Below are positions 9,842-41,561 of a stretch of DNA of 55,314 bases, one piece after another. Made by a program: the position numbers and the translations under genes. Position 1 is the first letter of the stretch, and each line of letters begins with the position of its first letter. The DNA is from a virus. The notes under the pieces were generated by a model that was not told the origin of the DNA, ran no database searches, and saw only the letters and a list, made by a program, of their open reading frames with translations. The stretch covers positions 1-55,314 of IMG/VR virus record IMGVR_UViG_3300034073_001667. One strand, written 5' to 3'.

Positions 9842-9845
9842 ATGG

Positions 9846-9853
9846 CAAAGATA
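9846..9853 (-). promoter_or_regulatory. TAnnTTTG core before endolysin
   Basis: The minus strand reads TATCTTTG 4 nt before the endolysin ATG. No TTG lies at the usual -33 distance. Confidence 0.4.
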
Positions 9854-10035
9854 GTAACAGCAATAATAGCTGTATTTGATAGCTGTTTCACTTATTTATG
9901 GCTCCGTAAGTAGAAATCGCATTAAGTGTGTACTGTAACACTTATACATTATTGACTGCAACTGCTTGATAAACAATTATGAACAAACATACTCTTATAT
10001 TTGCTTATTAACTTTTTCATTTGTAACTTCGCTAA

Positions 10036-10139
10036 GGCTAGAGCCGATAGACAGAACGCAGACTAACTAAGCTCTCTTATCATCGAGAGCCTACTTAGCC
10101 TACCAAACAAAGCAGGGGCGGCGCCTCAAGCAGAGCCCC
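10036..10139. ncRNA. Possible structured RNA or DNA element
   Basis: Nested complementary segments: GGCTA (10036-10040) pairs with TAGCC (10096-10100) around GCTCTC (10071-10076) with GAGAGC (10085-10090), and a separate stem pairs GGGGC (10115-10119) with GCCCC (10135-10139). A TATATTTG promoter core lies at 9996-10003. No tRNA fold and no coding frame is seen. It could be a small RNA or a DNA cruciform of the origin. Confidence 0.25.
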
Positions 10140-10250
10140 CACCCCACCGCCGATAGCAAACAAAACTCAAGCTCCTAGGGTCCGCTCAGCTACCTAGAAT
10201 ACAGGCGCACTATACCCTAACCATAGCTGTTCAAATCATAACAGCAATCT

Positions 10251-10291
10251 AGTTGGCTCTAATAGTTTTTTCTTTTTTAGAATAGCCAACT
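10251..10291. repeat. Large inverted repeat with T-rich loop
   Basis: AGTTGGCT (10251-10258) is the exact reverse complement of AGCCAACT (10284-10291). An inner CTAA/TTAG pairing closes a T-rich loop. There is no U-run after the stem, so it is not a normal terminator. Confidence 0.5.
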
Positions 10292-10524
10292 TGTATCTGG
10301 TGGCTGCAAATAAGTATCTAGCGTTAGATATAAGTACCTAGGGGATTATATACATAATCGATCGTTCGCGCGCGCGTACGGAAACCGATCCCCAGACGTA
10401 TGGGGTTGCGTTTGACAGCATTTCGTTCGTAGGTTTCAGCGTTTTACCCACGTGACTCTCGTGATGAACTGACTGATTTTGCTGAGGGTTTTGAGTTGAG
10501 TTCCTAGAGAAAAGGAGGAACAAT

Positions 10525-10571
10525 CCCCCCCCCACTTCACCCATTTCTCCCACTATCTCCCACCCTTGCCC
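10525..10571 (-). other. C9 tract and G-quadruplex motif
   Basis: The plus strand has nine C in a row (10525-10533) followed by CCC runs at 10540, 10549, 10559, 10563 and 10569. On the minus strand the four rightmost runs form the canonical GGG-3-GGG-1-GGG-7-GGG quadruplex pattern (10549-10571), with two more G-runs beyond. Strand asymmetry is strong. Confidence 0.6.
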
Positions 10572-10650
10572 ACGTGCTATGCACACTTGCACACGTGCTC
10601 ACGTACGTGCGTGTGTGTGTACGTGCGCGCATTATGCGCGTGCGCGAGCC
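10571..10650. repeat. Alternating purine/pyrimidine tract with palindromes (Z-DNA prone)
   Basis: About 80 nt of CACGTG, GTACGT, GTGTGTGT and GCGCGC steps. It includes the perfect 15-nt palindrome CGCGCATTATGCGCG at 10626-10640 and two CACGTG sites. Nothing similar occurs elsewhere in the window. Confidence 0.55.
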
Positions 10651-10666
10651 AAAGGAATTCGGTTAG

Positions 10667-10699
10667 CTTTATCCATCATTTTGAGCAATGGATATAAAG
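10667..10699. repeat. Inverted repeat with DnaA-box-like halves
   Basis: CTTTATCCAT (10667-10676) faces ATGGATATAAAG (10688-10699), an inverted repeat with a two-base insertion. Each half contains a sequence close to the DnaA box core TTATCCA, but neither is a perfect TTATCCACA. Confidence 0.4.
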
Positions 10700-10724
10700 T
10701 TTCGTTCAATTTGCGGTTTGCCTA

Positions 10725-10754
10725 TTGTGGGTTCGTTTCGGCTAACTACATTCG
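10725..10754 (+). promoter_or_regulatory. Early promoter
   Basis: TTG (10725-10727), 19 nt spacer, TACATTCG (10747-10754), one mismatch from TAnnTTTG. It lies 27 nt before the first early ATG at 10782 and would drive the rightward cluster. Confidence 0.5.
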
Positions 10755-10781
10755 CAGTGTTAACCACTTAAAACAATTGCT

Positions 10782-26817: not shown

Positions 26818-26893
26818 GTATTCGCGCTCATTCCGCATCGAACTTGATATGATTCGTGCGGCTCTGACAGAGTACAACGAACAGCACGGATGA
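26675..26893 (+). CDS. Hypothetical protein, 72 aa
   Basis: ATG 26675. A helical protein (MTLEQLSRIYFIATSRISAA ... ELDMIRAALTEYNEQHG) with good composition, so the frame is likely real although two thirds of it overlap the RusA tail. ATGA overlap with the next gene. Function unknown. Confidence 0.55.
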   Translation: MTLEQLSRIYFIATSRISAASADLYEDLHDQKGSPLLDQKQVSEITNKYSRSFRIELDMIRAALTEYNEQHG

Positions 26894-27852
26894 TAACCGT
26901 AGTACACCTTGACAGCCTCAGTGGTGTAAACTACCACAGATTGATTGTGCCACTTCGTCGACTTCAGTCGCAAGGAGTCAACCTGCATTGGATACAATCA
27001 CTCGCAGAGCTTAAGGATATGAACCTTGACTTGGTTGACAATCTGATTGTGTCGCGCAAGGTTTCTGTCAACAGCCACAAGGAGTTCAGCCGTATGCTAA
27101 AGAAGCACGGCGTACGTCTAATCCTTGACAACGACGACTATTGGGTCCTCAATCCAGAGAATCCAGCGAAGAAAGCGTACGAAATTTACTACGGCCCAGA
27201 CATTAAGAAGACCATAAAGATTGCTGATGTAGTCTGGACCCCTTCTACATATCTGGCCAAGTTAATGAAGGACGAAAACCCAAAGGCAACCATTGAATTT
27301 GTAAACAATGCAATCGACACTACAGAGGAACAATGGGCCGAGCAATCCAAACGACGCTCTTCTACTGTTCGCTTTGGCTATGTTGGTGCTCTGGCTCATA
27401 TACACGACGTCAAATCTATAGGCTACGACTTCTCCAACGTCTACACGTTTGGCGTAGAAGGAATGGAGTACGACGACATCTTTAAGTACAACAAGACATC
27501 GCCACCTCGTGAGATATGGCACTACGGAAAGCTGTACAAAGAGTTTGACGTAAGCCTTGTGCCACTAGTAGGCAACAGGTTTAACTGGAGCAAGAGCGAC
27601 CTTAAGATTACTGAAGCCGCAGTAACAAAGACTGCTGTAATTGCCAGTAATACAAGACCTTACAACTCTGTCATTACTGATGGAGAGACTGGCATACTTG
27701 TGTCTGACCAACAGCAGTGGAAGGAAGCCATCGAGTCTATGGACAAGAAGAAGGCTAAGAAGCTTGGAGAAAATCTTCACGAGTCGCTTAAAGATTCTCC
27801 AGACCACAACCTTGACCTTGTAAACGAGAAACGATTAAAGTATTTGGTATGA
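26890..27852 (+). CDS. Glycosyltransferase, GT4-like
   Basis: 320 residues. A Rossmann-like N-terminal half (VVHLDSLSGVNYHRLIVPL; LILDNDDYWVL) and a C-terminal half with KITEAAVTKTAVIASNTRPY and ITDGETGILV, the acceptor/donor-binding pattern of GT-B, GT4-type enzymes. It begins a three-gene surface-sugar module with the DUF3431 and UDP-galactopyranose mutase genes, overlapping the next gene by 4 nt. It may decorate virions, phage DNA or host surface glycans; the acceptor cannot be told from sequence. Confidence 0.75.
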   Translation: MITVVHLDSLSGVNYHRLIVPLRRLQSQGVNLHWIQSLAELKDMNLDLVDNLIVSRKVSVNSHKEFSRMLKKHGVRLILDNDDYWVLNPENPAKKAYEIYYGPDIKKTIKIADVVWTPSTYLAKLMKDENPKATIEFVNNAIDTTEEQWAEQSKRRSSTVRFGYVGALAHIHDVKSIGYDFSNVYTFGVEGMEYDDIFKYNKTSPPREIWHYGKLYKEFDVSLVPLVGNRFNWSKSDLKITEAAVTKTAVIASNTRPYNSVITDGETGILVSDQQQWKEAIESMDKKKAKKLGENLHESLKDSPDHNLDLVNEKRLKYLV

Positions 27853-28415
27853 TAGACGTAGTAATTGCATCGTACAAAGAGGATCTGTCTTGGACAGATA
27901 GACTTAATGCCAACAAAGTCATCTACGACAAGGGAGAGACAGGCAATGGAATCCCATTGGCAAACATTGGTCGCGAGGCACACACTTACGTCCACCACAT
28001 TGTAGAAAACTACAAGAACCTTCCCGAGTGGACAGCGTTCGTTCAGGGCAATCCGTTTGACCACGCACCCCACGTTCTTACGCTAATAAACGACTTTGAG
28101 AAGATTTCTGGAGACAACAAGAAAGAAAAGTTCTACTTCCTTGGTAAGATGATTGTTCAGTGCGACATCAATGGGCTTCCACACCATCCGGGACTAGACT
28201 TAGCTGGATTTCAGGTAGCGCTGTTTGACACAATCGTACAGATGGATATGGTGTTTGTTGCTGGTGCTCAGTTTATCGTTCATCGTGACTTAATCAAAAA
28301 CAAGAAGCTGGCATTTTGGAAGCGTATGCTAAAGACATTTGATGGAGACAGCTACCCAGATGCCCCTTGGTGTGCCGAGCGTTTGTGGACATACATCTTC
28401 AACTACCACAAGTAA
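27849..28415 (+). CDS. DUF3431-like protein (putative glycosyltransferase)
   Basis: 188 residues. IDVVIASYKEDLSW at the start, NIGREAHTYVHHIVENYKNL near 38-57 and WTAFVQGNPFDH near 61-72 are the DUF3431 pattern, a family usually found with polysaccharide genes. Further on GAQFIVHRDLI and the WCAERLWTYIF end are typical. It overlaps the glycosyltransferase and mutase genes by a few bases, so the three are one unit. Confidence 0.75.
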   Translation: MIDVVIASYKEDLSWTDRLNANKVIYDKGETGNGIPLANIGREAHTYVHHIVENYKNLPEWTAFVQGNPFDHAPHVLTLINDFEKISGDNKKEKFYFLGKMIVQCDINGLPHHPGLDLAGFQVALFDTIVQMDMVFVAGAQFIVHRDLIKNKKLAFWKRMLKTFDGDSYPDAPWCAERLWTYIFNYHK

Positions 28416-29494
28416 TGTACGACTTTCTGATTGTGGGTGCAGGGCTGTACGGTAGCGTTTGTGCACGCGAACTCACCGACAAGGGGTATAACGTTTTAGT
28501 TATAGACAAGCGTCCACACATTGGCGGCAACTGCTACACATCGCGTCAGAAGGGCATCGATGTCCACGTGTACGGTCCTCATATCTTCCACACATCCAAC
28601 GAAGAGGTGTGGGAATACATAAACAGATTTGCAAGCTTTGAACCGTACAAGTTTAGCCCAGTTGCCAACTACCTCGGGGAGCTGTTCTCTCTTCCGTTCA
28701 ACCTCTGGACATTCAAGCAGGTCTACAACCTGAGCACACCTCAAGAGGTTAAGCAGAAGCTTGAGGATATGAAGAAGTTCGACGAGCCAAATAACCTTGA
28801 GGAGGTGGCCATCAACTCAATTGGTTGGCTGATGTATCAAAAATTGGTATACGGATACACCAAGAAGCAGTGGATGAGAGAGCCAAAGGAACTGCCTGCT
28901 GAAATCATCAAGAGGCTTCCTGTCCGTCTTACCTTCGACAACAACTACTTCAACGACAAGTATCAGGGCATACCTGTTGGCGGATACACCAGCATATTCG
29001 AACAGCTACTTGATGGCATCGAGCTAGAGCTTGGCGTAGACTTTAAGATGACCCACCACCGCATCAAGGCAAAGAACATCATCTACACTGGCAAGATTGA
29101 TGAGCTGTTTGACTACGAGTACGGAGACCTTGACTACAGAAGCCTACGCTTTGAACAGAAGACCTACCAGACCGACAACCATCAGGGCACGGCTGTGATA
29201 AACTACACCGACGACGTGACGAAGTTCACTCGTTCTATTGAGCACCGACACTTTGTTCGCAACGCAGACTCTGACGTTACGATTGTGACCAAAGAGTACC
29301 CATCGGAATACTTCCGAGGTGCCGAACCATACTACCCCGTTGACACTACACAAAACAGAATCAGGTACACCCAATACAAAGCAGCGGCAGACGCAGTTGA
29401 TGGGCTACATCTTGGTGGACGACTAGCGGAGTACAAATACTACGATATGCACCAAGTAATTGAGAGCGCCCTAAACTTCTGCAAGCAATGGTAA
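28415..29494 (+). CDS. glf: UDP-galactopyranose mutase
   Basis: 359 residues from ATG 28415 (TAATG overlap). An FAD-binding dinucleotide fold starts at residue 3 with VGAGLYG (7-13) and IDKRPHIGGNCY. YGPHIFHTSNEEVWEY, PFNLWTF, YGYTKKQW and the C-terminal GGRLAEYKYYDMHQ are hallmark UGM segments. The enzyme converts UDP-galactopyranose to UDP-galactofuranose, the donor for Galf transfer. It is full length and appears active. Its presence with two transferase-like genes implies Galf-type sugar modification during infection. Confidence 0.93.
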   Translation: MYDFLIVGAGLYGSVCARELTDKGYNVLVIDKRPHIGGNCYTSRQKGIDVHVYGPHIFHTSNEEVWEYINRFASFEPYKFSPVANYLGELFSLPFNLWTFKQVYNLSTPQEVKQKLEDMKKFDEPNNLEEVAINSIGWLMYQKLVYGYTKKQWMREPKELPAEIIKRLPVRLTFDNNYFNDKYQGIPVGGYTSIFEQLLDGIELELGVDFKMTHHRIKAKNIIYTGKIDELFDYEYGDLDYRSLRFEQKTYQTDNHQGTAVINYTDDVTKFTRSIEHRHFVRNADSDVTIVTKEYPSEYFRGAEPYYPVDTTQNRIRYTQYKAAADAVDGLHLGGRLAEYKYYDMHQVIESALNFCKQW

Positions 29495-29921: not shown

Positions 29922-29945
29922 GGGTCACGCGTGTGGCCCTTTTTT
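29922..29945 (+). terminator. Rho-independent terminator
   Basis: Stem GGGTCAC (29922-29928) with GTGGCCC (29933-29939), one T-G wobble, 4-nt loop, then six T. It separates the sugar module from the ribonucleotide reductase genes. Confidence 0.75.
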
Positions 29946-29969: not shown

Positions 29970-30965
29970 ATGGGACTGTTCGATGAACGTACCGCATATA
30001 AGCCATTCGAGTACCCAGTGTACTTTACAGAGGGATGGCTACCTCAGGCTCAAGCCTTCTGGCTTCACACAGAAATTCCAATGATGGGAGACGTTAAGGA
30101 CTTCCGTGAGAACCTAACAGATTCAGAGCGCAATCTAGTTGGCAACATCCTGATTGGCTTTGCCCAGACAGAGACTGCTGTTGGCGACTACTGGACCAGT
30201 ATGGTAACCAAGTGGTTCCCCAAGCACGAAATCAAGCAGATGGCTATGATGTTCGGATCTCAGGAGACTATCCACGCTGCAGCCTACAGCTACCTCAACG
30301 AAACGCTTGGCCTTGAGAACTTCGAGGCATTCCTTCACGAGCCATCAACAGCTGCACGCTTTGAGAACCTCGTCAACACGAAGGCAGGATACGACCATAA
30401 CATCCTTAAGATTAGCCCGAAAGCGCGTCAAGATGTTGCTCGTTCTATCGCTGTGTTCTCTGCGTTTGCAGAGGGAGTAGCGCTGTACTCATCATTTGCT
30501 GTTCTCTACTCGTTCCAGATGCGTAACCTACTGAAAGGTATTGGACAGCAGATGAAGTGGAGCGTACGTGACGAGAGCCTCCACAGCAAAATGGGTTGCG
30601 TCCTGTTCAATCATTTGTGCCAAGAGCATCCAGAGATTCGTGTTGCCGTACGTGCACAGATTGAGGAAGCCGCACGTATTGCTGTTGAGCTAGAGGTTAA
30701 CTTCATAGACAAGATGTTTGAGATGGGAGACCTTGAGAACCTAAAGGCAGACGACCTCAAGGAGTTCATCAAGATGCGTGCAAACGAGAAGCTTGTTGAG
30801 CTTGGCTACGAGGCCATCATTTCATACGATGCTGATAAAGCTGCTGAACTTGAGTGGTTCAACCACCTGTCTGGAGGCGTAACACACACCGACTTCTTTG
30901 CTGTCCGCCCTACGGACTACAGCAAGGCAGGAGAAGGAGAAGACTTTGAGGACATATGGACGTAA
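29970..30965 (+). CDS. nrdB: Ribonucleotide reductase small (beta) subunit, class I
   Basis: 331 residues from ATG 29970. The metal ligands and radical tyrosine are visible: Glu68 in QTETAVGDYW, Glu99 and His102 in GSQETIH with Tyr106 at the expected +4, Glu in FSAFAEGVAL and Glu/His in RDESLHSKMG. It supplies the radical that lets the large subunit reduce ribonucleotides to dNTPs. The acidic/aromatic C-terminus (GEDFEDIWT) is the docking tail for NrdA. It lies behind a terminator and thus likely has its own promoter. Confidence 0.93.
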   Translation: MGLFDERTAYKPFEYPVYFTEGWLPQAQAFWLHTEIPMMGDVKDFRENLTDSERNLVGNILIGFAQTETAVGDYWTSMVTKWFPKHEIKQMAMMFGSQETIHAAAYSYLNETLGLENFEAFLHEPSTAARFENLVNTKAGYDHNILKISPKARQDVARSIAVFSAFAEGVALYSSFAVLYSFQMRNLLKGIGQQMKWSVRDESLHSKMGCVLFNHLCQEHPEIRVAVRAQIEEAARIAVELEVNFIDKMFEMGDLENLKADDLKEFIKMRANEKLVELGYEAIISYDADKAAELEWFNHLSGGVTHTDFFAVRPTDYSKAGEGEDFEDIWT

Positions 30966-31261
30966 TAGATAAAATCGAAATCATTCTCAATACTGTTTGC
31001 TACGGGTACGAAATCAAACCTATAGCAATCAGAGCAAAGAATAGGCAGTCTAACATTCGTGAGGCAAGACAACTCGTTGCCTACCTCGTTAGAGAATACA
31101 CAGATTTATCCCTACCTAAAGTTGGATTCGTGATTAACAGGGACCACACAACAGTAATCCACTCAATAAAGGTGGTGCGAAACGAAATCGAGTTCAACAA
31201 GGACTATCGACGCAAGTACGAACTTATTAACGAAATAATTAAAACTAGAATCTATGGCTAA
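30956..31261 (+). CDS. Free-standing DnaA domain IV-like DNA-binding protein
   Basis: 101 residues. It matches the C-terminal domain of DnaA: a basic helix with REARQLVAYLVREYTDLSL (35-53), then PKVGFVI and the DnaA signature NRDHTTVIHSI (61-71), followed by a closing helix. In DnaA this part recognises DnaA boxes (TTATNCACA) at origins. The AAA+ ATPase is absent, so it can bind but not unwind by itself. It overlaps nrdB by 10 nt and nrdA by 8 nt, so all three are co-translated. It may repress host initiation, mark a phage origin or regulate nrd. Confidence 0.82.
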   Translation: MDVIDKIEIILNTVCYGYEIKPIAIRAKNRQSNIREARQLVAYLVREYTDLSLPKVGFVINRDHTTVIHSIKVVRNEIEFNKDYRRKYELINEIIKTRIYG

Positions 31262-33032
31262 GAACTACGGAGACGAATACGGATGGGTGCTCGGAGTAGA
31301 CTACCCCGAGTGGGGTAACACCGATGTGTACTGCAAAACAATCTCAAAAGGATATCTGCTTCCGGGCGAAACACCGCGTGATGCCTATTGGCGTGCGGCT
31401 AACGCTGCAGCTAAGCGCCTCTACAAGCCTGAGCTTGCGGAGAAGTTCTTCTCGTACATCTGGAACAACTGGCTTGGACTTGCCACACCAGTGCTAGCAA
31501 ATATGGGTACAGATCGTGGACTACCCATCAGCTGTTTTGGTATTGACGTTGCAGACAGCATTCACGACATTGGGTCCAAAAACCTAGAGATGATGATGCT
31601 TGCCAAACACGGAGGAGGCGTAGGCATCGGAGTGAATATGCTTCGCCCATCAGGGTCACCCATCTCCAACAGCAATGGCACAACCGATGGCGTGGTTCCG
31701 TTCTGCAAAATCTACGACTCAACAATCCTTGCCACATCTCAAGGCAACGTACGTCGCGGTGCTGCATCTGTCAACCTAAACATCGAGCACGGAGACTTCT
31801 GGGACTGGATTGAGATTCGAGAGCCTAAGGGCGACGTGAACCGTCAGTCTCTGAACCTACACCAGTGTGTAGTTGTGTCAGACAAGTTTATGCGTAAGCT
31901 AGAGGATGGCGACGAGGAGGCCCGCAAGCGTTGGTCTAAGGTCATCCAAAAGCGTAAGGCTACTGGTGAGCCTTACATTATGTACCGAGGCAACGTAAAC
32001 AAGCAGAACCCTGAGCCGTACAAGCACAACGGTCTGAAGGTTTATATGACCAACATCTGTTCGGAGATCACACTCCACACGGATGAGTCACATAGTTTTG
32101 TCTGCTGTCTTTCTTCACTCAACCTCGCCAAGTACGACGAGTGGAAGGACACAGACCTAGTCTACTACTCCACGTTCTTCTTGGACGGGGTGTTGGAAGA
32201 GTTCATCCAGAAAGCCAAGAATATGAAGGGCTTCGAAAATTCGGTTCGCTCCGCTGAAAAGGGACGGGCACTTGGACTGGGTGTACTCGGATGGCACACC
32301 TACCTGCAGCAACGTGGAGTACCCTTTGAGGGCCTACAGGCCCAGCTTGAGACCCGTAAGATCTTCTCACACATTAAGATGGAGAGCGATCGTGCGAGTC
32401 GTGATATGGCACGCATCTACGGGGAACCTTTGTGGTGCCGTGGGTTCGGTGTGCGTAACACCCACCTGCGTGCAATCGCACCAACCGTATCCAACAGCAA
32501 ACTCAGCGGTAACGTAAGTGCAGGCATTGAGCCGTGGGCAGCGAATGTGTTTACCGAGCAGTCAGCTAAGGGTACGTTCATTCGTAAAAACCCCACATTG
32601 GAGCGCTTACTGAAGAAGATTGGTGCCAACACTAAAGAGGTTTGGGATCAGATTCTTGCCGACGGAGGCTCTGTTCAGGAGGTTGCTGCGCTTGAGCCTT
32701 GGTTCTACCAACGCGGTAAGCTTATACACCAAGATGAACTTGATGCTATGATTGATAGCGTTCCAGTAAAGGACGTGTACAAGACCTTCAAGGAGATTAA
32801 CCAGCTTGACCTTGTAATCCAAGCAGGTCTACGTCAGCAGTACATTGACCAAGCTGTTAGTCTAAACCTTGCGTTTCCATCGGAGGCAACTCCTAAGTGG
32901 ATCAACCAAGTCCATATGGAGGCTTGGCGTCAAGGTGTGAAGACGTTGTACTATATGCGAACTGAATCAGTGCTGCGTGGAGATATCGCAGCCAGAGCTA
33001 TGGACGTAAGTTGTTTATCCTGCGACGGTTAG
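31254..33032 (+). CDS. nrdA: Ribonucleotide reductase large (alpha) subunit, class I
   Basis: 592 residues. Catalytic residues are present: Cys94 in PISCFG, the N-x-C-x-E set Asn267, Cys269 and Glu271 in NICSEI, and Cys285 in CCLSSLN as redox partner. The C-terminal tail ends CLSCDG with Cys587 and Cys590, the thioredoxin/glutaredoxin-accessible pair. No N-terminal ATP-cone is seen, so overall activity is probably not shut down by dATP, a common phage trait. Short for the bacterial family, as usual in phages. A strong terminator begins 76 nt after the stop. Confidence 0.93.
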   Translation: MAKNYGDEYGWVLGVDYPEWGNTDVYCKTISKGYLLPGETPRDAYWRAANAAAKRLYKPELAEKFFSYIWNNWLGLATPVLANMGTDRGLPISCFGIDVADSIHDIGSKNLEMMMLAKHGGGVGIGVNMLRPSGSPISNSNGTTDGVVPFCKIYDSTILATSQGNVRRGAASVNLNIEHGDFWDWIEIREPKGDVNRQSLNLHQCVVVSDKFMRKLEDGDEEARKRWSKVIQKRKATGEPYIMYRGNVNKQNPEPYKHNGLKVYMTNICSEITLHTDESHSFVCCLSSLNLAKYDEWKDTDLVYYSTFFLDGVLEEFIQKAKNMKGFENSVRSAEKGRALGLGVLGWHTYLQQRGVPFEGLQAQLETRKIFSHIKMESDRASRDMARIYGEPLWCRGFGVRNTHLRAIAPTVSNSKLSGNVSAGIEPWAANVFTEQSAKGTFIRKNPTLERLLKKIGANTKEVWDQILADGGSVQEVAALEPWFYQRGKLIHQDELDAMIDSVPVKDVYKTFKEINQLDLVIQAGLRQQYIDQAVSLNLAFPSEATPKWINQVHMEAWRQGVKTLYYMRTESVLRGDIAARAMDVSCLSCDG

Positions 33033-33277: not shown

Positions 33278-33690
33278 TACTTAAAACGATATAGAAACAT
33301 CATCAGGACAAGTGCCCCTCCTAAAAACAAAAGTAAATAATTCTTTACCTTTTCTGTTTTACCCTCAGGCTGAACAAGTTGCGGAGGGCACTCAGCTTGT
33401 ACGCTCACTGGGACCTCGACCTCCTTAATCTGAGTCTTCACTATCATCTTGTCTTGAAACTTTGTGATGACAATACGCACGGTGTCGTTTTCAATCACCG
33501 AGGAATCGCCTTCAGTAGGCACGCTGACGGTGTCAACCAAATACACTGGTGGTGTCACAATCGTGTCCCATATCGTAACAACCGTGGGCTTCAAGATGGA
33601 AGGGTCCTTCTTGGCTGCTTGATTCAGGTGCCAAGTTGCGCTGCAGCCAGTAAGTAATCCAGCTACTAATAGGGTCGATATGTGTTTCAT
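33277..33690 (-). CDS. Unimolecular spanin (u-spanin) lipoprotein
   Basis: 137 residues. The N-terminus MKHISTLLVAGLLTGC carries a lipoprotein signal with lipobox L-L-T-G-C (Cys16). The C-terminal 21 residues contain a transmembrane segment (YLLLFLGGALVLMMFLY) ending in RFK. An outer-membrane lipid anchor and an inner-membrane helix joined by a periplasmic beta-rich linker are the definition of a u-spanin, which fuses the two membranes as the last step of lysis. The gene is far from the endolysin but in the late arm, overlapping the giant protein gene by one base. Confidence 0.75.
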   Translation of the reverse strand: MKHISTLLVAGLLTGCSATWHLNQAAKKDPSILKPTVVTIWDTIVTPPVYLVDTVSVPTEGDSSVIENDTVRIVITKFQDKMIVKTQIKEVEVPVSVQAECPPQLVQPEGKTEKVKNYLLLFLGGALVLMMFLYRFK

Positions 33691-36600
33691 TAGAGTTCAT
33701 TTATTTTATAGTTTTCATATGCTTTCTGGAACTTAGCTAGTTGTGCGTAGCGCATACGCTCCAATTCTAATAACCTATCCTCCTTAGTGTTTTCATCCTT
33801 AATGTTTTCTGCGGCCTTCTCCATCTTTCTGATATTGCGAAGAGCCGCGTCTACAGACTTAGATACCACATACATAGAGCGAACCTTTGATGCGTCCTTA
33901 GGCTCTAGTTTGTTTGACTTAGCCTCGTCCATAAACTGATTGACCTCAATGCGCCTATCAAAGTAAGACTGAAGGTCTACAAACTTGCGGGGCTGTCCAT
34001 AGAATACACGAGCAAAGGGAACTTGATTTGATTCCATCTGATCCCAATTACCAGTCACAAGATTACCAACAGATTCTGTAGTGCGCAATCCAAATCGTCC
34101 TGCACCACCGCTAAGCGTCTCAAGTACAAAGTCAATCTTATCAGGATTGATGTCAACGATTCCACTCCTAAACTCAGATCCACCAGTCAATTTATTAAGC
34201 TGCTTAGCAATCCAAACACTTTGAGGTGTAGCACCCTTACGACCTAGTTCTGACTCTGGCTTAGGTGTTGGGTCAGTTGGGAAGTTCTCATTGTAAATCG
34301 TGCGCCCGAAGTAGTCTTCGTTAAGCGCAAGGGACAACGGAATCTGTCCAATTGTTGGCGTAACAAACTTGATGAGCCAAGAGGATAAGTCCTCGCTAGA
34401 TGGGAAGTTAATCGGTGAGAACGAACCAATGGCGGCCTCAAAGATGTTTGATGCAACCTCGCCCACAGACTTGATTCCCTGTCCTGCATCAGCCATTGCA
34501 TTTCCTGCAACGTAAAAGACGTTAAGACCATATGGAAGAGGAATCTTAACATAGTCCTTTCCGTTTGGAGCCATAATGATTATGTTACGCTCCTTTTCAA
34601 AGTCTGGAATCTTAGAGTAGAATGACTTGTCATCCTCATCGTCATCACTAATAAGTTCGTTGATGACTGACATAATGCTTCCAGCCACAAACATTGAGAT
34701 AGCAATCTTCTGTGCGTTGGTAACCTGAAGCGAACGAGTTCCGTCGTCGTTCTTCTTGAATTGAGGCTTAAGGCTTCGAACCAAGCGAGATGTGCCCTGA
34801 ACAGACGCGTTGAAGAACAGATACAAAGAGTTAGCAACGGGACCAATTGATCCGCTCTTATTGAAGTTAACAGTCAAGCCCTTCGCTAGCTCTGCTGCCT
34901 TTTCTCTTGCTAGACCTGCCTTTCGAGACTCAATGTATGCAGCTAAACGAACACCATTCTCTACAGATGTGTTGATGCGCTCGACAAAGTTTCCAGCAGC
35001 CTGAAGAGCACCATCGCCCTTGCCGCTCATAAGTTTGTCTACATCCTTACGGAGTTCATCCACAGACTTGCTGTAGAACCACTCCGTCTTAGCACCATCT
35101 TCAATAAATTCGCTGTAGTAACGCTCAAACTCATTGGTCGCCTGAGCATCTTTACCAGACATCTTAAAGATTGCCTTGATTGAAGGGAATACAGACTTTA
35201 CAATCTTACTAGTAATGTTCTTGCCTTTAAGTATACCACCCTCAATCTCTTGTTCGCTCACAGCATTAACAACAGCAACCTGAATGTCTCGAGAGAAGTT
35301 GCGAAGTACAAACTCAGGGTCGTACGTAGTGATGAATGAACTCAATAATCGGTTGAATCTACCCAATGACTGCACTAGGAAGTCTGCCTTTACCACATTC
35401 GTACCACGAAGTGCCTCCGCAAGTTTAGGGTCTGCAAACTGAACAAACTTATATTCGCCATCAATACGAACAGCAAAATTTCTGTCGTCAAGTACGTAGT
35501 CCGATATCGTCTTTGCTACATCCTTGATTCCTTTTGTTGTAGCCTTCTTCTTGTACTCCTTGTTTACAGATGGGTCAATAACCTTCCAAATGTCATCGTT
35601 GGGGTTTTCCTTGGCAAGTTTGTACAACTTCTGAGCAACCTCATTCTTACGAGCACGAATAATCGTAGATTGATTCTGAGCAACAGCATTTAAGAATGGA
35701 GAGTCCGCCTTAGACTTACGGCCCATTGCACGCTTCTCCCGCCCGCGAACCTCAAGCCCACGACCTCCACCAATTATCTCACTTGCTGAATCCTCTCCCT
35801 CAAACCCACGTAGTGGTACGTAGTATTTATACGTATCCTCAAAAGCAAGTAGGGTATCAAATGTTTCAAGACCAAAGTCAAACATACGACTACGTGTGTC
35901 TGCGATGATTTCTTGCGTTCCCTTTACTGCATCGCGAAGTGCAGGTTTTAGGGAGTTTATGTTTGGATTGTATGAGTCGAGCCCATATGAGTTAAGAATC
36001 GCTTGAGCCTCAGCATCGGTCATACCAGAGCCAGCATTCTCTCGGGTGTACTGAGTGAAGAATTGGTTTGGAGTGAGCCCGTATATTGATAGTATATCGT
36101 TCAACTCCTTTGTGCTGATACCTCCCTTTGCTGTTCCTGCCTCTAGCTCTCGATAAGTTTCTAGGTCTATGCCAGCTAACTGAGCAGCCTCTGATGGCTT
36201 TAGATTGTTCTTCTTGCGTAGGTCAGTAATAGATTCTGCAATATCAGTACGCTGTACTCGGATGTATCTGTTACGCTCTTGAGCGTGGAGAGCATAAAGA
36301 AGATTATCAAACTCTTCAAGAGTTACTCCTGCTTTCTTGACACTAGCAACGACATCCTCTGCTTTCTTCGTTGACTCTGCAATGTCATTCGCTGCCTTTC
36401 CGTGCATCAAAACCTCAGCATTACGGAAGTCTTGGTCAAGACCTACTGGCTTACCAGTTGAATACTCAACATCTTCCTGAAGCTGTATTACACCATAAAG
36501 TCGGTCCTGAATTGCAATACGAGCAAGGTCAGTATAGCGCTCCATAGGAGTTCTGTCTCGCTGCTGCCAAGACTTAGAGTCCGCTAGTTGGTCCTCAATG

Positions 36601-39600
36601 TCGTAGTTTATCTGTGAGGCTTGGAACCCAAGCTGCACTTTCTCTTTCGATGAGCTGTCTAATAGTTCATCGTATGGCTTGTTTGCCCGACGAGAAGATG
36701 ACTCTGATAGTTCTGAGTCTAGAGCGTTATTACGCTCATCAAGAATTTCTAAGGCTTGGTTGAGAAGCTTAAGCGCACCTTCCCTTCCATCTCCTTCGTA
36801 GCGTTTGGAATCCCGCGCTTCTTGAAGAATTCGTCCATAATAGTCCTCGGACTCTCTGTCTGAGTTGGGGAACTTGATTTCTGCTTCATAGTACTTGATT
36901 GATTTTTCATCGATTAGGTTGTTTTCTTGAGCAAATGTAAGTAGATTATCTAAATTATCACGCAACTGATCCATAGAAATTTCTTCGCTAGGAATCATTG
37001 CAAGGCTAAATGACTTGTCAGATACCACATACGTGAATCCACCACCAAATCCGTAATCGTTAAGTGCGTTGATAATTTGCTTTGCAGATGCGTCGCTCTT
37101 AGCGTTAAATGTTACCTCACTTCCTTCTGCTCCAGACTTGTATTCCACAAGCATAACTCCGTTTTGGAAGTCTTCCTTCTTTACGGGTGCCATAATACCA
37201 GCAACGGCAGACATAGCAAGGATGTCTTCCTTGTTGCCAGCAATAGCAGGGCGCATTGATACCTCCTGAGTAACAGAGTTTAACTCGGAGTCGTACCAGC
37301 CGCCAATAGTCTTTTCGATTCCGTATACTTGAACATCGAACTTTTTTGCGATGTCCCTAAATCCCTTAACAAAGCGCTCAAATGATGGCCTCTTATACTC
37401 ATCGCGAGCCTCAGATATCTCGTTAACGTACTTAGCACGATATGGGGCAATGCCTACAATAGACTTGACAATATTGTTGTTAATCTCAAGGTTGTTTGCT
37501 GATGCACCACCAGTAACGACAGCACGTGCAGCACGAATCTTAATTCGCTTCTTAAGCTCTGGGTCGCCCTTCTCTTCAGCCATCTTAGAACGATAATCGC
37601 CAAAGACATTTCGTACGTCTACAAACTCATTAAGAATCTTTAGGTCCTTGAATCCAGTGATAATCCAAGGGTATGCAGGGTGAACCTTAGCGCCTTCAAT
37701 TGTACGAGAATCTTTGACCTCCACCTTCTTTGGGTCAAACTCAAGGACAGCAACAATGTCACCGTACTGCGCATTCGCAAGCAGGGGCTCATTGACGTAG
37801 TCTAAGATAGTTTCAATTCTAGGCAAACCAAATCGCTTGTTGGCCTCTGCAGAAAACAGAGCCTCATTGAACTCTGCACGAACTTCATATCCAACCTTCT
37901 TTGGACCATCGTTTGGCATAAGGTTCTTAAGTTCGGACAGCTTCTTGATTTGAAGTGGCAAACCTTTCTCCTCTAGCGCTGACTGAATTGGTTTTTTCTT
38001 TAACTTGGAGTTGATATACTCAACAAGTTCAGCCTCAGTAGCACGCTTGTCCTTAACAGCCTTATTAACCTCCTCAAGCATATAGCCCCAGAACTGGAAG
38101 TTGCCACGGATTCCACGGCTGTCCTGAGACATAAGCAATACTCGTCCATCAAACTTCTTGAGCTTGCTCAATATCTTCTTTGCTGTTTTTTCGTCGGTGA
38201 ATGCCCAACCTCCTTCTCCGAGGAGCGGGTAAAATACGCCGCCATCAAACGTATATGCAACACCTGTTGGTGACTTTATAATACCAGTAACAGCAAGGTC
38301 CATAGCGTACGTTATAGCAGGTTTGCCAACGTACTCCGAAAGGTCAGCGTACTTAATTTTATTCTTATCAAAGGTGCGCTCCACATAGGATGCATCCTTT
38401 CCTTGTCTAGACTTAGATTCTTGAATCTGTGGGATTGCATTGACTACTTCAGACTCTAATCCAGTGTATGTTTGGTCGTCAATTACTGACTCGAACAAAG
38501 CACCAGAGAACGAGTTCATAAAGTCGATAAACTCACCACGGCTGTTGATCTTAAGACTTGGTGCAATCTTACCAATAAAGTTGTTAAGCCACTGGATAAG
38601 CTTGTCCATTGTAGACTTGCTGATTCTCTCTCCAGATGTAGATATGAATCCAGCAACCTGAGCCATAAACTCCTCTGGCGTTTCTTTCGCTGTATACTCA
38701 CCTGCTTTAACAAATGATTCAGCGGCATCAGCCAACAATTGGTCCTGCTCTGATCCGTTACGAAGTATTTTTAATAACCCTGAGTAGAAATCCTCTGCTG
38801 ATTTTTGACGAGCCTTCTGACTTCCTTTCGCAAAACGATTTACAAAAGCTGCGTGGAATACTTCGTGAAAAGGAACAACAGCATCCATATCTTCAAGGTT
38901 GATGTGGATTTCATTTCGTGAAGGAATGAATCGTCCACTCTCTACGCCAGCTTCATCAAGGCTGGCCTTAGATACTGCACTAACGTTTTCGTTATATTCT
39001 TTTCTGCTGTTGTGAGTGATGATGGTAACAGGAAGCCCAAGACGCTTTGCTAAGCGATCAGCTTGAGATACAGCTTCTGTGACTTCAGCCTCACTTAAGT
39101 TTTTTCTGTTCTTAGGTTTCTCTTCCTTGATTGTTTCAACTACCTCTTCCTCTACAGCTTCAGTCGGAAGAACAACCCTAGCCCCTCTTCTCTCTGGTCG
39201 CTCAGCAACTGGAACACGCTCTTTAGTTGTAACATCACGAGTAACAGTTTCGTACTCCTGCATCCAGATTACTTCTGGTACATCTCCGATTTCCTTTTTG
39301 CGTGCATCAATGGCGATATCTAACGCAAGTTCTGGACGATTTACTACCTCGACGCGTAGTGGGGAAATGTCTTGGCCCTTTGGCGTCTTTGGACGCATAA
39401 CAACTCCTGTAACGTTCCCAGCGTCGTCAAGGATTGACTCCACATACTCAAGACCCAAGATATTGTCAGCAACTTTTGGCTGTCGTCCAACCTCTTGCTT
39501 TGTGGTCTTATCATATGTTACAACATCAATCGATCCATCGTCTTGTGTCTCAATTACAGATGTTTGGTTGTCTGCCTCAGTTCCTACAGCGACCTCAAGA

Positions 39601-41561
39601 TTGTCTAACCTTTCGAAGAGGCGGAACTTTCCGCGTCGGACTTCTGGCTCGACAACCGTGCGGCTACCCGCTCGAGGAGCTCCAACTGGGACTTCTTCGG
39701 TAACTTGTTCAGTTGTAGTAATTGTTCTGTTGTCATAGTATTCTATATCGTCAAATTTATCTTCTAGCGTTTGAATGTACGCAGTCTTTACATCGTCTGC
39801 AATGTCAAGAGACTCTACCTCGTCAATTGCATCTAAGATTTGCTGTTGTGCATTTGTCGCCTCAGCATTGTCTACCTCTTGTCCTTCGGCTATTTTTTTG
39901 AAGACTTCTTGCTGCTCAAGTACTTGAAGAACTCGACCTGCTTCAGGCGACGTTCCGCTTGCGACTTGGACAGGCTCGGCTTCGACAACGGCTTCCCCTT
40001 CGACGACAGGACTTGGTACCCTGACTTCTTCTTGACTATCATACTCGTATACTTTAATGTTTGGATCGTACTTGGATTCAATCTTTGTCTTCTCAGAGTA
40101 AAGCTGTTTTACCTTCTCTTGAAGCGCATCCTTTGCTTGATCGCTGTTAAGCTCAGGGTAAATCAACTGAGCCATAGACAGCTGTTGATTTAGTGAAATA
40201 ACATTGTCGCGATCTTCCTCGCTGAACTCTTCGTAGAATGATGCAAGATTGTTTTCTACTTGCTTAAGTTCTGCAAGCTTGTTTATGATTTGACCCCTTA
40301 CAACAGATTTCTCTGATGCGTTAGTGTTGGGGTCTTGGTGAACGTCATATAGGTTATTTATCTCTTCTGAGATGTTTCGACGCTTGTTGATGTCTTTTGC
40401 TGTTCCAATAGCACTTGGTCCCTTTGAAAGAAGTGTTATCGGAGAACCAATTGCAGAACCAAGAATGAATGCGTCAGCCATCCCATAGATGTTCTTCTTT
40501 GAAAGCATATCCTCACCATATACAAGCGCATCAAGTGCGTTGCTTGAAATCTCAACAGCAAGTTCTTCTATGCCCTCTTGAAAACCTTCGGTTGCTACAT
40601 CTTTGCCTACTTGCTTAGCGGCTTGAAGCGTCGGGCGAGTAGACTTTGCAATGTCAGACACTAAACCTTTACGGAATCCTCCACGAATCAAGTCATCAAC
40701 GCTAGTGCGGAACAAAAGTTCAGATGCAATCTCACCAGTGCCCTTATATGTAGCAACAGCTAAATTTGATATAACGTCAACCCAATCCTCTTCTGGATTC
40801 TTTTCTGCAGACTCTAGATATGCTTGACCTGCCGCTGACAAACCAAGTGGTACCATAGGTGCAACATCTTCAGCTATTGTCTTTACAAGCTTTGTGCGAG
40901 GAGTAAGGATGGCTCCAGTCCTAAGTCCAGCTGCAGTAGCACCCTCGGCTGCCATAGCTGAACGACCAATGGCCCCAAGTGCAATCATCTGCGGAAGTTG
41001 ATACGCAGCCTCAAACGCCAATAGCTTAGCGCCCTCAGATGGGCTCTCTTGAAATGCCTCTACTATTCCCTTATTTGCGGATTCGGGTCCTACATATGCA
41101 GCCTTAAGGCTGTTTTTATTTTCCTTAAGTGGTTCGAGCAGCTTTGCTGAGTTGGAAGAAAAATAGTTGGTGTTGCTGCCGAGCAATGTCGCCTCTACAA
41201 CTCTGTTTAGAAATGTGTTTGCAGAAACGACACCTTCTGCAATAGATCCACCGACTAAAGAACCTAAGTCCTTGAATTTTTGTAGTGGATCACCAACCGC
41301 CCTCTTTACTGCGGCCTCAGGATCGAAGCCAACCTTATCACTAACTGATGTATCCGATGCAGAAGGTTTTTCCGAAGAGCTTGAAACGGATGCCTCTGAA
41401 GGTTCTTTTTTTTTTACGTCAAAATCTACTTGATTAGCATAGATTGGATATTTGTCGACCATCTTGCTTACCAACAGTGAGTCATCAACGTCAGCGTATT
41501 GTGGATACTTTGACTTTACCTTAGCCGCAAATTCAGCTACTGATAACTTAGGTTCTGGCAT
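33690..41561 (-). CDS. Giant polyvalent virion protein (metalloprotease, HTH and LPD38-like domains)
   Basis: 2623 residues, the largest gene. The N-terminus has the FAAKVKSKYPQY / MVDKYPIY repeat seen in phage polyvalent proteins, then amphipathic and Gly/Ala-rich helices (residues 70-370), charged coiled coils, and a zinc-protease motif HEVFH at 899-903. Beta-rich domains of unknown role fill about 1050-1650. An XRE-like helix-turn-helix lies at about 1775-1845 (LKPSEAAQLAGIDLETYREL). Hydrophobic helices after about 2240 (YLFFNASVQGTSRL) resemble the LPD38 domain. Such proteins travel in the capsid and are injected with the DNA. This would make it an ejection protein that also acts on host targets. 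Confidence 0.75.
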   Translation of the reverse strand: MPEPKLSVAEFAAKVKSKYPQYADVDDSLLVSKMVDKYPIYANQVDFDVKKKEPSEASVSSSSEKPSASDTSVSDKVGFDPEAAVKRAVGDPLQKFKDLGSLVGGSIAEGVVSANTFLNRVVEATLLGSNTNYFSSNSAKLLEPLKENKNSLKAAYVGPESANKGIVEAFQESPSEGAKLLAFEAAYQLPQMIALGAIGRSAMAAEGATAAGLRTGAILTPRTKLVKTIAEDVAPMVPLGLSAAGQAYLESAEKNPEEDWVDVISNLAVATYKGTGEIASELLFRTSVDDLIRGGFRKGLVSDIAKSTRPTLQAAKQVGKDVATEGFQEGIEELAVEISSNALDALVYGEDMLSKKNIYGMADAFILGSAIGSPITLLSKGPSAIGTAKDINKRRNISEEINNLYDVHQDPNTNASEKSVVRGQIINKLAELKQVENNLASFYEEFSEEDRDNVISLNQQLSMAQLIYPELNSDQAKDALQEKVKQLYSEKTKIESKYDPNIKVYEYDSQEEVRVPSPVVEGEAVVEAEPVQVASGTSPEAGRVLQVLEQQEVFKKIAEGQEVDNAEATNAQQQILDAIDEVESLDIADDVKTAYIQTLEDKFDDIEYYDNRTITTTEQVTEEVPVGAPRAGSRTVVEPEVRRGKFRLFERLDNLEVAVGTEADNQTSVIETQDDGSIDVVTYDKTTKQEVGRQPKVADNILGLEYVESILDDAGNVTGVVMRPKTPKGQDISPLRVEVVNRPELALDIAIDARKKEIGDVPEVIWMQEYETVTRDVTTKERVPVAERPERRGARVVLPTEAVEEEVVETIKEEKPKNRKNLSEAEVTEAVSQADRLAKRLGLPVTIITHNSRKEYNENVSAVSKASLDEAGVESGRFIPSRNEIHINLEDMDAVVPFHEVFHAAFVNRFAKGSQKARQKSAEDFYSGLLKILRNGSEQDQLLADAAESFVKAGEYTAKETPEEFMAQVAGFISTSGERISKSTMDKLIQWLNNFIGKIAPSLKINSRGEFIDFMNSFSGALFESVIDDQTYTGLESEVVNAIPQIQESKSRQGKDASYVERTFDKNKIKYADLSEYVGKPAITYAMDLAVTGIIKSPTGVAYTFDGGVFYPLLGEGGWAFTDEKTAKKILSKLKKFDGRVLLMSQDSRGIRGNFQFWGYMLEEVNKAVKDKRATEAELVEYINSKLKKKPIQSALEEKGLPLQIKKLSELKNLMPNDGPKKVGYEVRAEFNEALFSAEANKRFGLPRIETILDYVNEPLLANAQYGDIVAVLEFDPKKVEVKDSRTIEGAKVHPAYPWIITGFKDLKILNEFVDVRNVFGDYRSKMAEEKGDPELKKRIKIRAARAVVTGGASANNLEINNNIVKSIVGIAPYRAKYVNEISEARDEYKRPSFERFVKGFRDIAKKFDVQVYGIEKTIGGWYDSELNSVTQEVSMRPAIAGNKEDILAMSAVAGIMAPVKKEDFQNGVMLVEYKSGAEGSEVTFNAKSDASAKQIINALNDYGFGGGFTYVVSDKSFSLAMIPSEEISMDQLRDNLDNLLTFAQENNLIDEKSIKYYEAEIKFPNSDRESEDYYGRILQEARDSKRYEGDGREGALKLLNQALEILDERNNALDSELSESSSRRANKPYDELLDSSSKEKVQLGFQASQINYDIEDQLADSKSWQQRDRTPMERYTDLARIAIQDRLYGVIQLQEDVEYSTGKPVGLDQDFRNAEVLMHGKAANDIAESTKKAEDVVASVKKAGVTLEEFDNLLYALHAQERNRYIRVQRTDIAESITDLRKKNNLKPSEAAQLAGIDLETYRELEAGTAKGGISTKELNDILSIYGLTPNQFFTQYTRENAGSGMTDAEAQAILNSYGLDSYNPNINSLKPALRDAVKGTQEIIADTRSRMFDFGLETFDTLLAFEDTYKYYVPLRGFEGEDSASEIIGGGRGLEVRGREKRAMGRKSKADSPFLNAVAQNQSTIIRARKNEVAQKLYKLAKENPNDDIWKVIDPSVNKEYKKKATTKGIKDVAKTISDYVLDDRNFAVRIDGEYKFVQFADPKLAEALRGTNVVKADFLVQSLGRFNRLLSSFITTYDPEFVLRNFSRDIQVAVVNAVSEQEIEGGILKGKNITSKIVKSVFPSIKAIFKMSGKDAQATNEFERYYSEFIEDGAKTEWFYSKSVDELRKDVDKLMSGKGDGALQAAGNFVERINTSVENGVRLAAYIESRKAGLAREKAAELAKGLTVNFNKSGSIGPVANSLYLFFNASVQGTSRLVRSLKPQFKKNDDGTRSLQVTNAQKIAISMFVAGSIMSVINELISDDDEDDKSFYSKIPDFEKERNIIIMAPNGKDYVKIPLPYGLNVFYVAGNAMADAGQGIKSVGEVASNIFEAAIGSFSPINFPSSEDLSSWLIKFVTPTIGQIPLSLALNEDYFGRTIYNENFPTDPTPKPESELGRKGATPQSVWIAKQLNKLTGGSEFRSGIVDINPDKIDFVLETLSGGAGRFGLRTTESVGNLVTGNWDQMESNQVPFARVFYGQPRKFVDLQSYFDRRIEVNQFMDEAKSNKLEPKDASKVRSMYVVSKSVDAALRNIRKMEKAAENIKDENTKEDRLLELERMRYAQLAKFQKAYENYKINEL

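Follow-up and report, generated by a model that had tools for sequence, protein, structure and literature searches.

A gene for a lone DnaA domain IV at the nrdB-nrdA junction of one phage clade

The ribonucleotide reductase locus and the product of dnaA4

The window analysed here is the whole stretch of 55,314 nucleotides of a linear virus record (IMG/VR IMGVR_UViG_3300034073_001667). The relatives of its terminase are found in Flavobacterium, Cellulophaga and Maribacter phages, and this kinship makes a member of the Bacteroidota the likely host. Between the genes for the two subunits of a class I ribonucleotide reductase lies a small gene, here called dnaA4, and the locus has the following features (positions of the window):

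29922..29939, plus strand: hairpin resembling a terminator, with a T run after it, shortly before nrdB; retained across the clade, where changes in its stem compensate each other
29973..30965, plus strand: nrdB, class I ribonucleotide reductase small subunit (PF00268, E 7.1e-57)
30956..31261, plus strand: dnaA4, stand-alone DnaA domain IV gene, 101 aa (PF08299, AlphaFold2, 3pvp/1j1v)
31043..31045, plus strand: codon of Arg30, which corresponds to the minor-groove contact Arg399 of E. coli (alignments; invariant among the copies between nrdB and nrdA)
31142..31153, plus strand: codons of Asp63-His64-Thr65-Thr66, which open the recognition helix and correspond to E. coli D433-T436 (alignments, model)
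31254..33032, plus strand: nrdA, class I ribonucleotide reductase large subunit (PF02867, E 4e-91; PF00317, E 1.3e-9)

The start of nrdB at ATG 29973 is the likely one, picked from the sequence. The flanks of the hairpin (TTCGCA..TCC and GTCTAAC) are conserved across the clade. Just upstream of the operon, at 26890-29494, lie a glycosyltransferase-like gene and a gene for UDP-galactopyranose mutase (GLF), and the minus strand at 33690-41561 is occupied by a single 2623-aa open reading frame, possibly encoding a virion-borne multifunctional protein.

The dnaA4 product matches PF08299 (Bac_DnaA_C) with residues 7-73, which cover positions 1-68 of the 69 in the profile (E 1.8e-21, 76.4 bits, the curated cut-off being 31.5 bits), and it also matches DnaA chains in the PDB. 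Together with the Pfam matches of the flanking reductase genes, this bears out the first-pass annotation, which had placed DnaA domain IV as a separate gene between nrdB and nrdA. No other PF08299 match occurs in the window record. The box-recognition domain indeed stands without its ATPase, as had been claimed, the AAA+ domain PF00308 being absent from the window record and from 12 relatives. All 101 residues are domain IV, and the N-terminal domain I, responsible for helicase loading, is absent from dnaA4. The gene therefore encodes the whole of DnaA domain IV and no other part of the protein; both the AAA+ ATPase and the domain I of a full DnaA initiator are missing.

The AlphaFold2 model of the protein, with 12 homologues from the same position as alignment input, has a mean pLDDT of 95.9 and predicts a six-helix fold with a helix-turn-helix, the recognition helix comprising residues 64-80. 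The top VIA-align matches to this model were complexes of DnaA domain IV with DNA, namely 3pvp (Z 18.0, rmsd 1.3 over 96 residues) and 1j1v (Z 17.4, rmsd 1.2 over 93 residues); the best non-DnaA chain reached a Z of 5.9. Among predicted viral structures, 57 matched with E values up to 1e-3, and the named ones are nearly all DnaA C-terminal proteins, which argues that the stand-alone kind is well populated.

Gene order, junctions and divergence in the clade

A query with NrdA led to 80 IMG/VR loci. In the closest of these, whose NrdA is 81% identical or more, the interval between nrdB and nrdA contains a gene for DnaA domain IV; this position is referred to below as the nrd slot, and Pfam confirmed the domain in 12 of the 12 nrd-slot records tested, including the loci L018 and L019. 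By contrast, 13 of the 14 more distant NrdA records tested are without PF08299, and the remaining one has it far from nrd; the order nrdB-dnaAIV-nrdA thus belongs to one clade. Combined with a further scan, made with the dnaA4 alignment, the NrdA scan gives a total of 29 IMG/VR contigs of this clade that carry the order, L018 and L019 counted; such a search in other phages had been proposed in the first-pass annotation. In the distant set, the nrdB-nrdA junction is either empty or occupied by genes whose sequences read as GIY-YIG, MazG-like or collagen-like, and therefore it appears to be a place that tends to receive genes. GIY-YIG-like, collagen-like and MazG-like junction genes are found in L004 (3353-3709), L020 (792-1505), L022-L024, L034-L036, L059 and L066. 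Elsewhere, at 3947-4612 of L200, a DnaA domain IV is fused to a C-terminal part that by eye has the look of a VRR-type nuclease.

In the window, the first 10 nt of dnaA4 also belong to nrdB and its last 8 nt to nrdA. The overlap with nrdA is 8 nt in all 16 loci in which the nrdA start can be placed (the window and 15 relatives), whereas the nrdB/dnaA4 junction varies among relatives: the two genes overlap by 10 nt or 1 nt, lie 10 to 11 nt apart, or have another gene between them. Translational coupling had been assumed for both reductase genes; because one overlap is constant and the other junction variable, the gene architecture makes coupling well supported for dnaA4 and nrdA, but not for nrdB and dnaA4.

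The protein sequence of dnaA4 has diverged far more than those of its neighbours. Relative to the other subclades, L018 set apart, the dN of the window is 0.54-0.73 for dnaA4 versus 0.09-0.14 for nrdB and nrdA, and the identity to the window protein is 33-41% for DnaA4 versus 81-89% for NrdA and NrdB. With the exception of the sister copy, the nrd-slot homologues are 23-42% identical to DnaA4 of the window. Ranked by identity among the shared genes, dnaA4 is the lowest or second lowest in the comparisons with genomes G002, G003, G007 and G009 and the fourth or fifth lowest in those with G004-G006; in the closest relative, G001, it is 99% identical. Judged from its coding sequence, dnaA4 is under purifying selection (dN/dS of 0.03-0.17 in close pairs). 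In the phylogenetic tree, all nrd-slot copies except that of L018, which is very diverged and of which L019 is a near-copy, form one supported clade (97/94). Repeated replacement of dnaA4 by unrelated copies was therefore rejected, L018 excepted, and fast vertical divergence fits better. Descent of the dnaA4-nrd pair from a host dnaA-nrd neighbourhood was considered and set aside: one fecal 'Bacteriophage sp.' entry, MT835965.1 (L086), does encode a full-length DnaA close to a large reductase, but the reductase is of a different type and the entry is a piece of a bacterial chromosome. Several MT83xxxx sister records of this entry may represent the same contamination.

In E. coli DnaA, R399 contacts the minor groove and the helix 434-451 the major groove, and the R399A and T435M variants are defective (PMC5742627). 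In the nrd-slot set, R30, R38, H64 and T66 (equivalents of R399, R407, H434 and T436) are invariant, Q39, R62 and D63 (equivalents of Q408, R432 and D433) are nearly so, and the equivalent of position 435, T65 in the window, is Thr or Ser. It should be noted that L018 has an Asn at the D433-equivalent position and that the equivalent of P423 is not conserved in the set. With the further contact positions, which we take to be those of the 1J1V complex, the mean pairwise identity in the nrd-slot set is 0.70 at contact positions versus 0.37 at the rest (permutation p 3e-4). Loss of the base-contact residues in homologues, named in the first-pass annotation as a refutation, was thus not found.

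DnaA boxes and the proposed function of DnaA4

The recognition helix starts with RDHTTV in the window and with RDHSTV in the homologues. The 16 cellular DnaA proteins of Bacteroidota that were read have DHSTV (12), DHTTV (2) or DHATV (2) at this place, and this agreement makes host-type boxes a plausible target of DnaA4. A full-length DnaA was present in 80 of 80 Bacteroidota genomes; only two of these have an additional short match, which exceeds the cut-off in one case. A free domain IV therefore seems to be rare in these cells.

We tentatively propose, at a probability that we place just short of even, that DnaA4 is an ATPase-less DnaA-box binder that vies with host DnaA for host sites and is expressed together with the enzymes of dNTP supply. 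The free domain IV would bind DnaA boxes and, being unable to form an ATP-DnaA filament because the ATPase, oligomerisation and helicase-recruiting domains are missing, would occupy the boxes at oriC and at DnaA-controlled promoters of the host with no replication start. It would thereby act as a competitor of host DnaA, and its co-production with ribonucleotide reductase would steer dNTPs and the host replisome towards phage DNA. A polymerase gene was not recognised in the window, so the phage probably needs the host replisome. The competitor reading draws on the DnaA-DNA complexes as the closest structures, the retained contact residues, the lack of an AAA+ domain and the purifying selection, and also on the position of dnaA4 and its overlap with nrdA, both fixed in the clade. 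A block of host oriC, one of the outcomes suggested in the first-pass annotation, is possible on this analysis, and the fixed position and fast evolution of dnaA4 hint at an interference with host replication control. A more elaborate version, a dominant-negative DnaA operon in which translational coupling would fix the ratio to NrdA, DnaA4 would switch host oriC off, the reductase would feed the phage, and the divergence would reflect adaptation to hosts, appears somewhat unlikely.

The distribution of boxes in the phage genomes bears on where such a protein might act. The scan was made with the consensus TTATCCACA, so that sites departing strongly from it lie beyond its scope. The window contains no perfect TTATCCACA and six sites with one mismatch, all apart from each other, and clusters of consensus boxes are absent from all 11 genomes scanned (the window and ten related ones). 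Six NrdA relatives without dnaA4 in the nrd slot also have box counts at chance and no clusters. The number of boxes in the window is low (6 versus about 12 expected), but the pooled count of the 11 genomes, 119, is at the expectation of 108-115, and the idea that the phage genome avoids boxes was therefore rejected. Boxes at chance level and unclustered argue against a target in the phage genome.

The main rival is that DnaA4 is the phage's origin-recognition factor: bound to sites of a phage origin, it would assist the loading of host DnaA or of the phage primase-helicase (24454-26286). Homologues in other phages are located near DnaB helicase, ERF, PolA and DUF1376/Lin1244-type genes, and their records are labelled 'DNA replication initiation'; this neighbourhood would fit a role in phage replication and speaks against the competitor reading. 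Furthermore, the phage has its own primase-helicase while no polymerase gene was recognised, and co-evolution with changing sites in the phage could explain the fast divergence, whereas host boxes change slowly, so that such divergence is no obvious prediction for a simple box competitor. However, dnaA4 lies outside the replication gene cluster, and the lack of box clusters in the 11 genomes of the clade extends to the region 9842-10781, which the first-pass annotation had named for a DNA-binding assay. This region contains no site within one mismatch of TTATCCACA; its six sites with two mismatches compare with 3.3 +/- 1.7 in shuffled sequences, and in G001, where the region is 81% conserved, at most two positions keep a two-mismatch site. 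These sites are weak, near chance and poorly conserved, and a DnaA-box origin at 9842-10781 is therefore unsupported. The region itself, 940 bp long, separates divergent gene blocks, has no clear gene and includes palindromic parts rich in CACGTG and GCGC. The origin factor is thus favoured by neighbourhoods in other phages and by no site in the clade, and we consider it unlikely.

Alternatively, DnaA4 might be a small transcription regulator of the phage nrd operon, or of host nrd and other DnaA-regulated promoters. The precedent invoked in the first-pass annotation is real, as E. coli DnaA controls nrdAB through promoter boxes (PMC8203912), and dnaA4 lies inside the nrd operon downstream of the conserved terminator-like hairpin. 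Nevertheless, no site within one mismatch of TTATCCACA is present in the operon (29.4-33.1 kb of the window), and this role is distinctly improbable. That dnaA4 is a passenger in a nrdB-nrdA hot spot with no tie to dNTP supply is very improbable. In its favour, unrelated genes, the GIY-YIG endonuclease among them, are found at this junction in other phages, so that the location may reflect no more than an insertion hot spot, which also counts against the competitor reading; in T4-like phages, moreover, nrd genes are accompanied by mobE, a homing endonuclease gene. On the other side, dnaA4 is kept with its nrdA overlap across the 29-contig clade, and its low dN/dS and conserved contact residues argue that it has its own function, be its position accidental or not.

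Comparison with known systems

The rarity that the first-pass annotation implied for a lone domain IV was overstated, as stand-alone domain IV proteins are widespread in phages and already known from annotation, usually among replication genes. A DnaA gene is listed as common to HTVC010P-related phages (PMC6811365), and phage DnaA C-terminal proteins (Cellulophaga phi19:3, Flavobacterium mumin/tooticki, Pelagibacter HTVC, many uncultured Caudovirales) are single domains with a fold like that of DnaA4. The other stand-alone genes examined have replication or unknown genes as neighbours; the position between nrdB and nrdA was seen in the present clade alone, whose copies group in the tree on a supported branch that excludes L018/L019. 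The kind is therefore known and the nrd location is a clade-specific variant. In the open-licence papers searched, neither an earlier description of the nrdB-dnaAIV-nrdA order with its contrast in rates nor experimental work on any phage domain IV protein was found; what is new is that dnaA4 occupies a fixed place between the two reductase genes and evolves fast. The clade offers a clean case, with a small, well-folded protein, a fixed operon that suggests a purpose, 29 contigs, and recognition residues that are held while the rest diverges.

With domain IV of cellular DnaA (PF08299, 1J1V, 3PVP), DnaA4 shares the whole fold, the base-contact residues and the helix-turn-helix; unlike E. coli DnaA, it is free-standing, without domains I-III, and one residue shorter before the recognition helix. 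The control of nrdAB in E. coli (PMC8203912) shares with the phage locus the link between DnaA-box binding and ribonucleotide reductase, but it is exerted by full-length DnaA at promoter boxes, whereas the phage nrd operon is without consensus boxes. Other phage proteins are known to act on host initiation: YfdR binds DnaA (PMC4776307), a phage protein is directed against S. aureus DnaI (PMC4887207), and lambda P acts on DnaB (PMC3640518). The outcome, restraint of host initiation, is the one also proposed for DnaA4, but these three bind host proteins, whereas DnaA4 would compete for DNA sites. If host DnaA is indeed displaced in this way, the clade would provide a simple means by which a phage stops host initiation, via competition for DNA instead of binding to a host protein.
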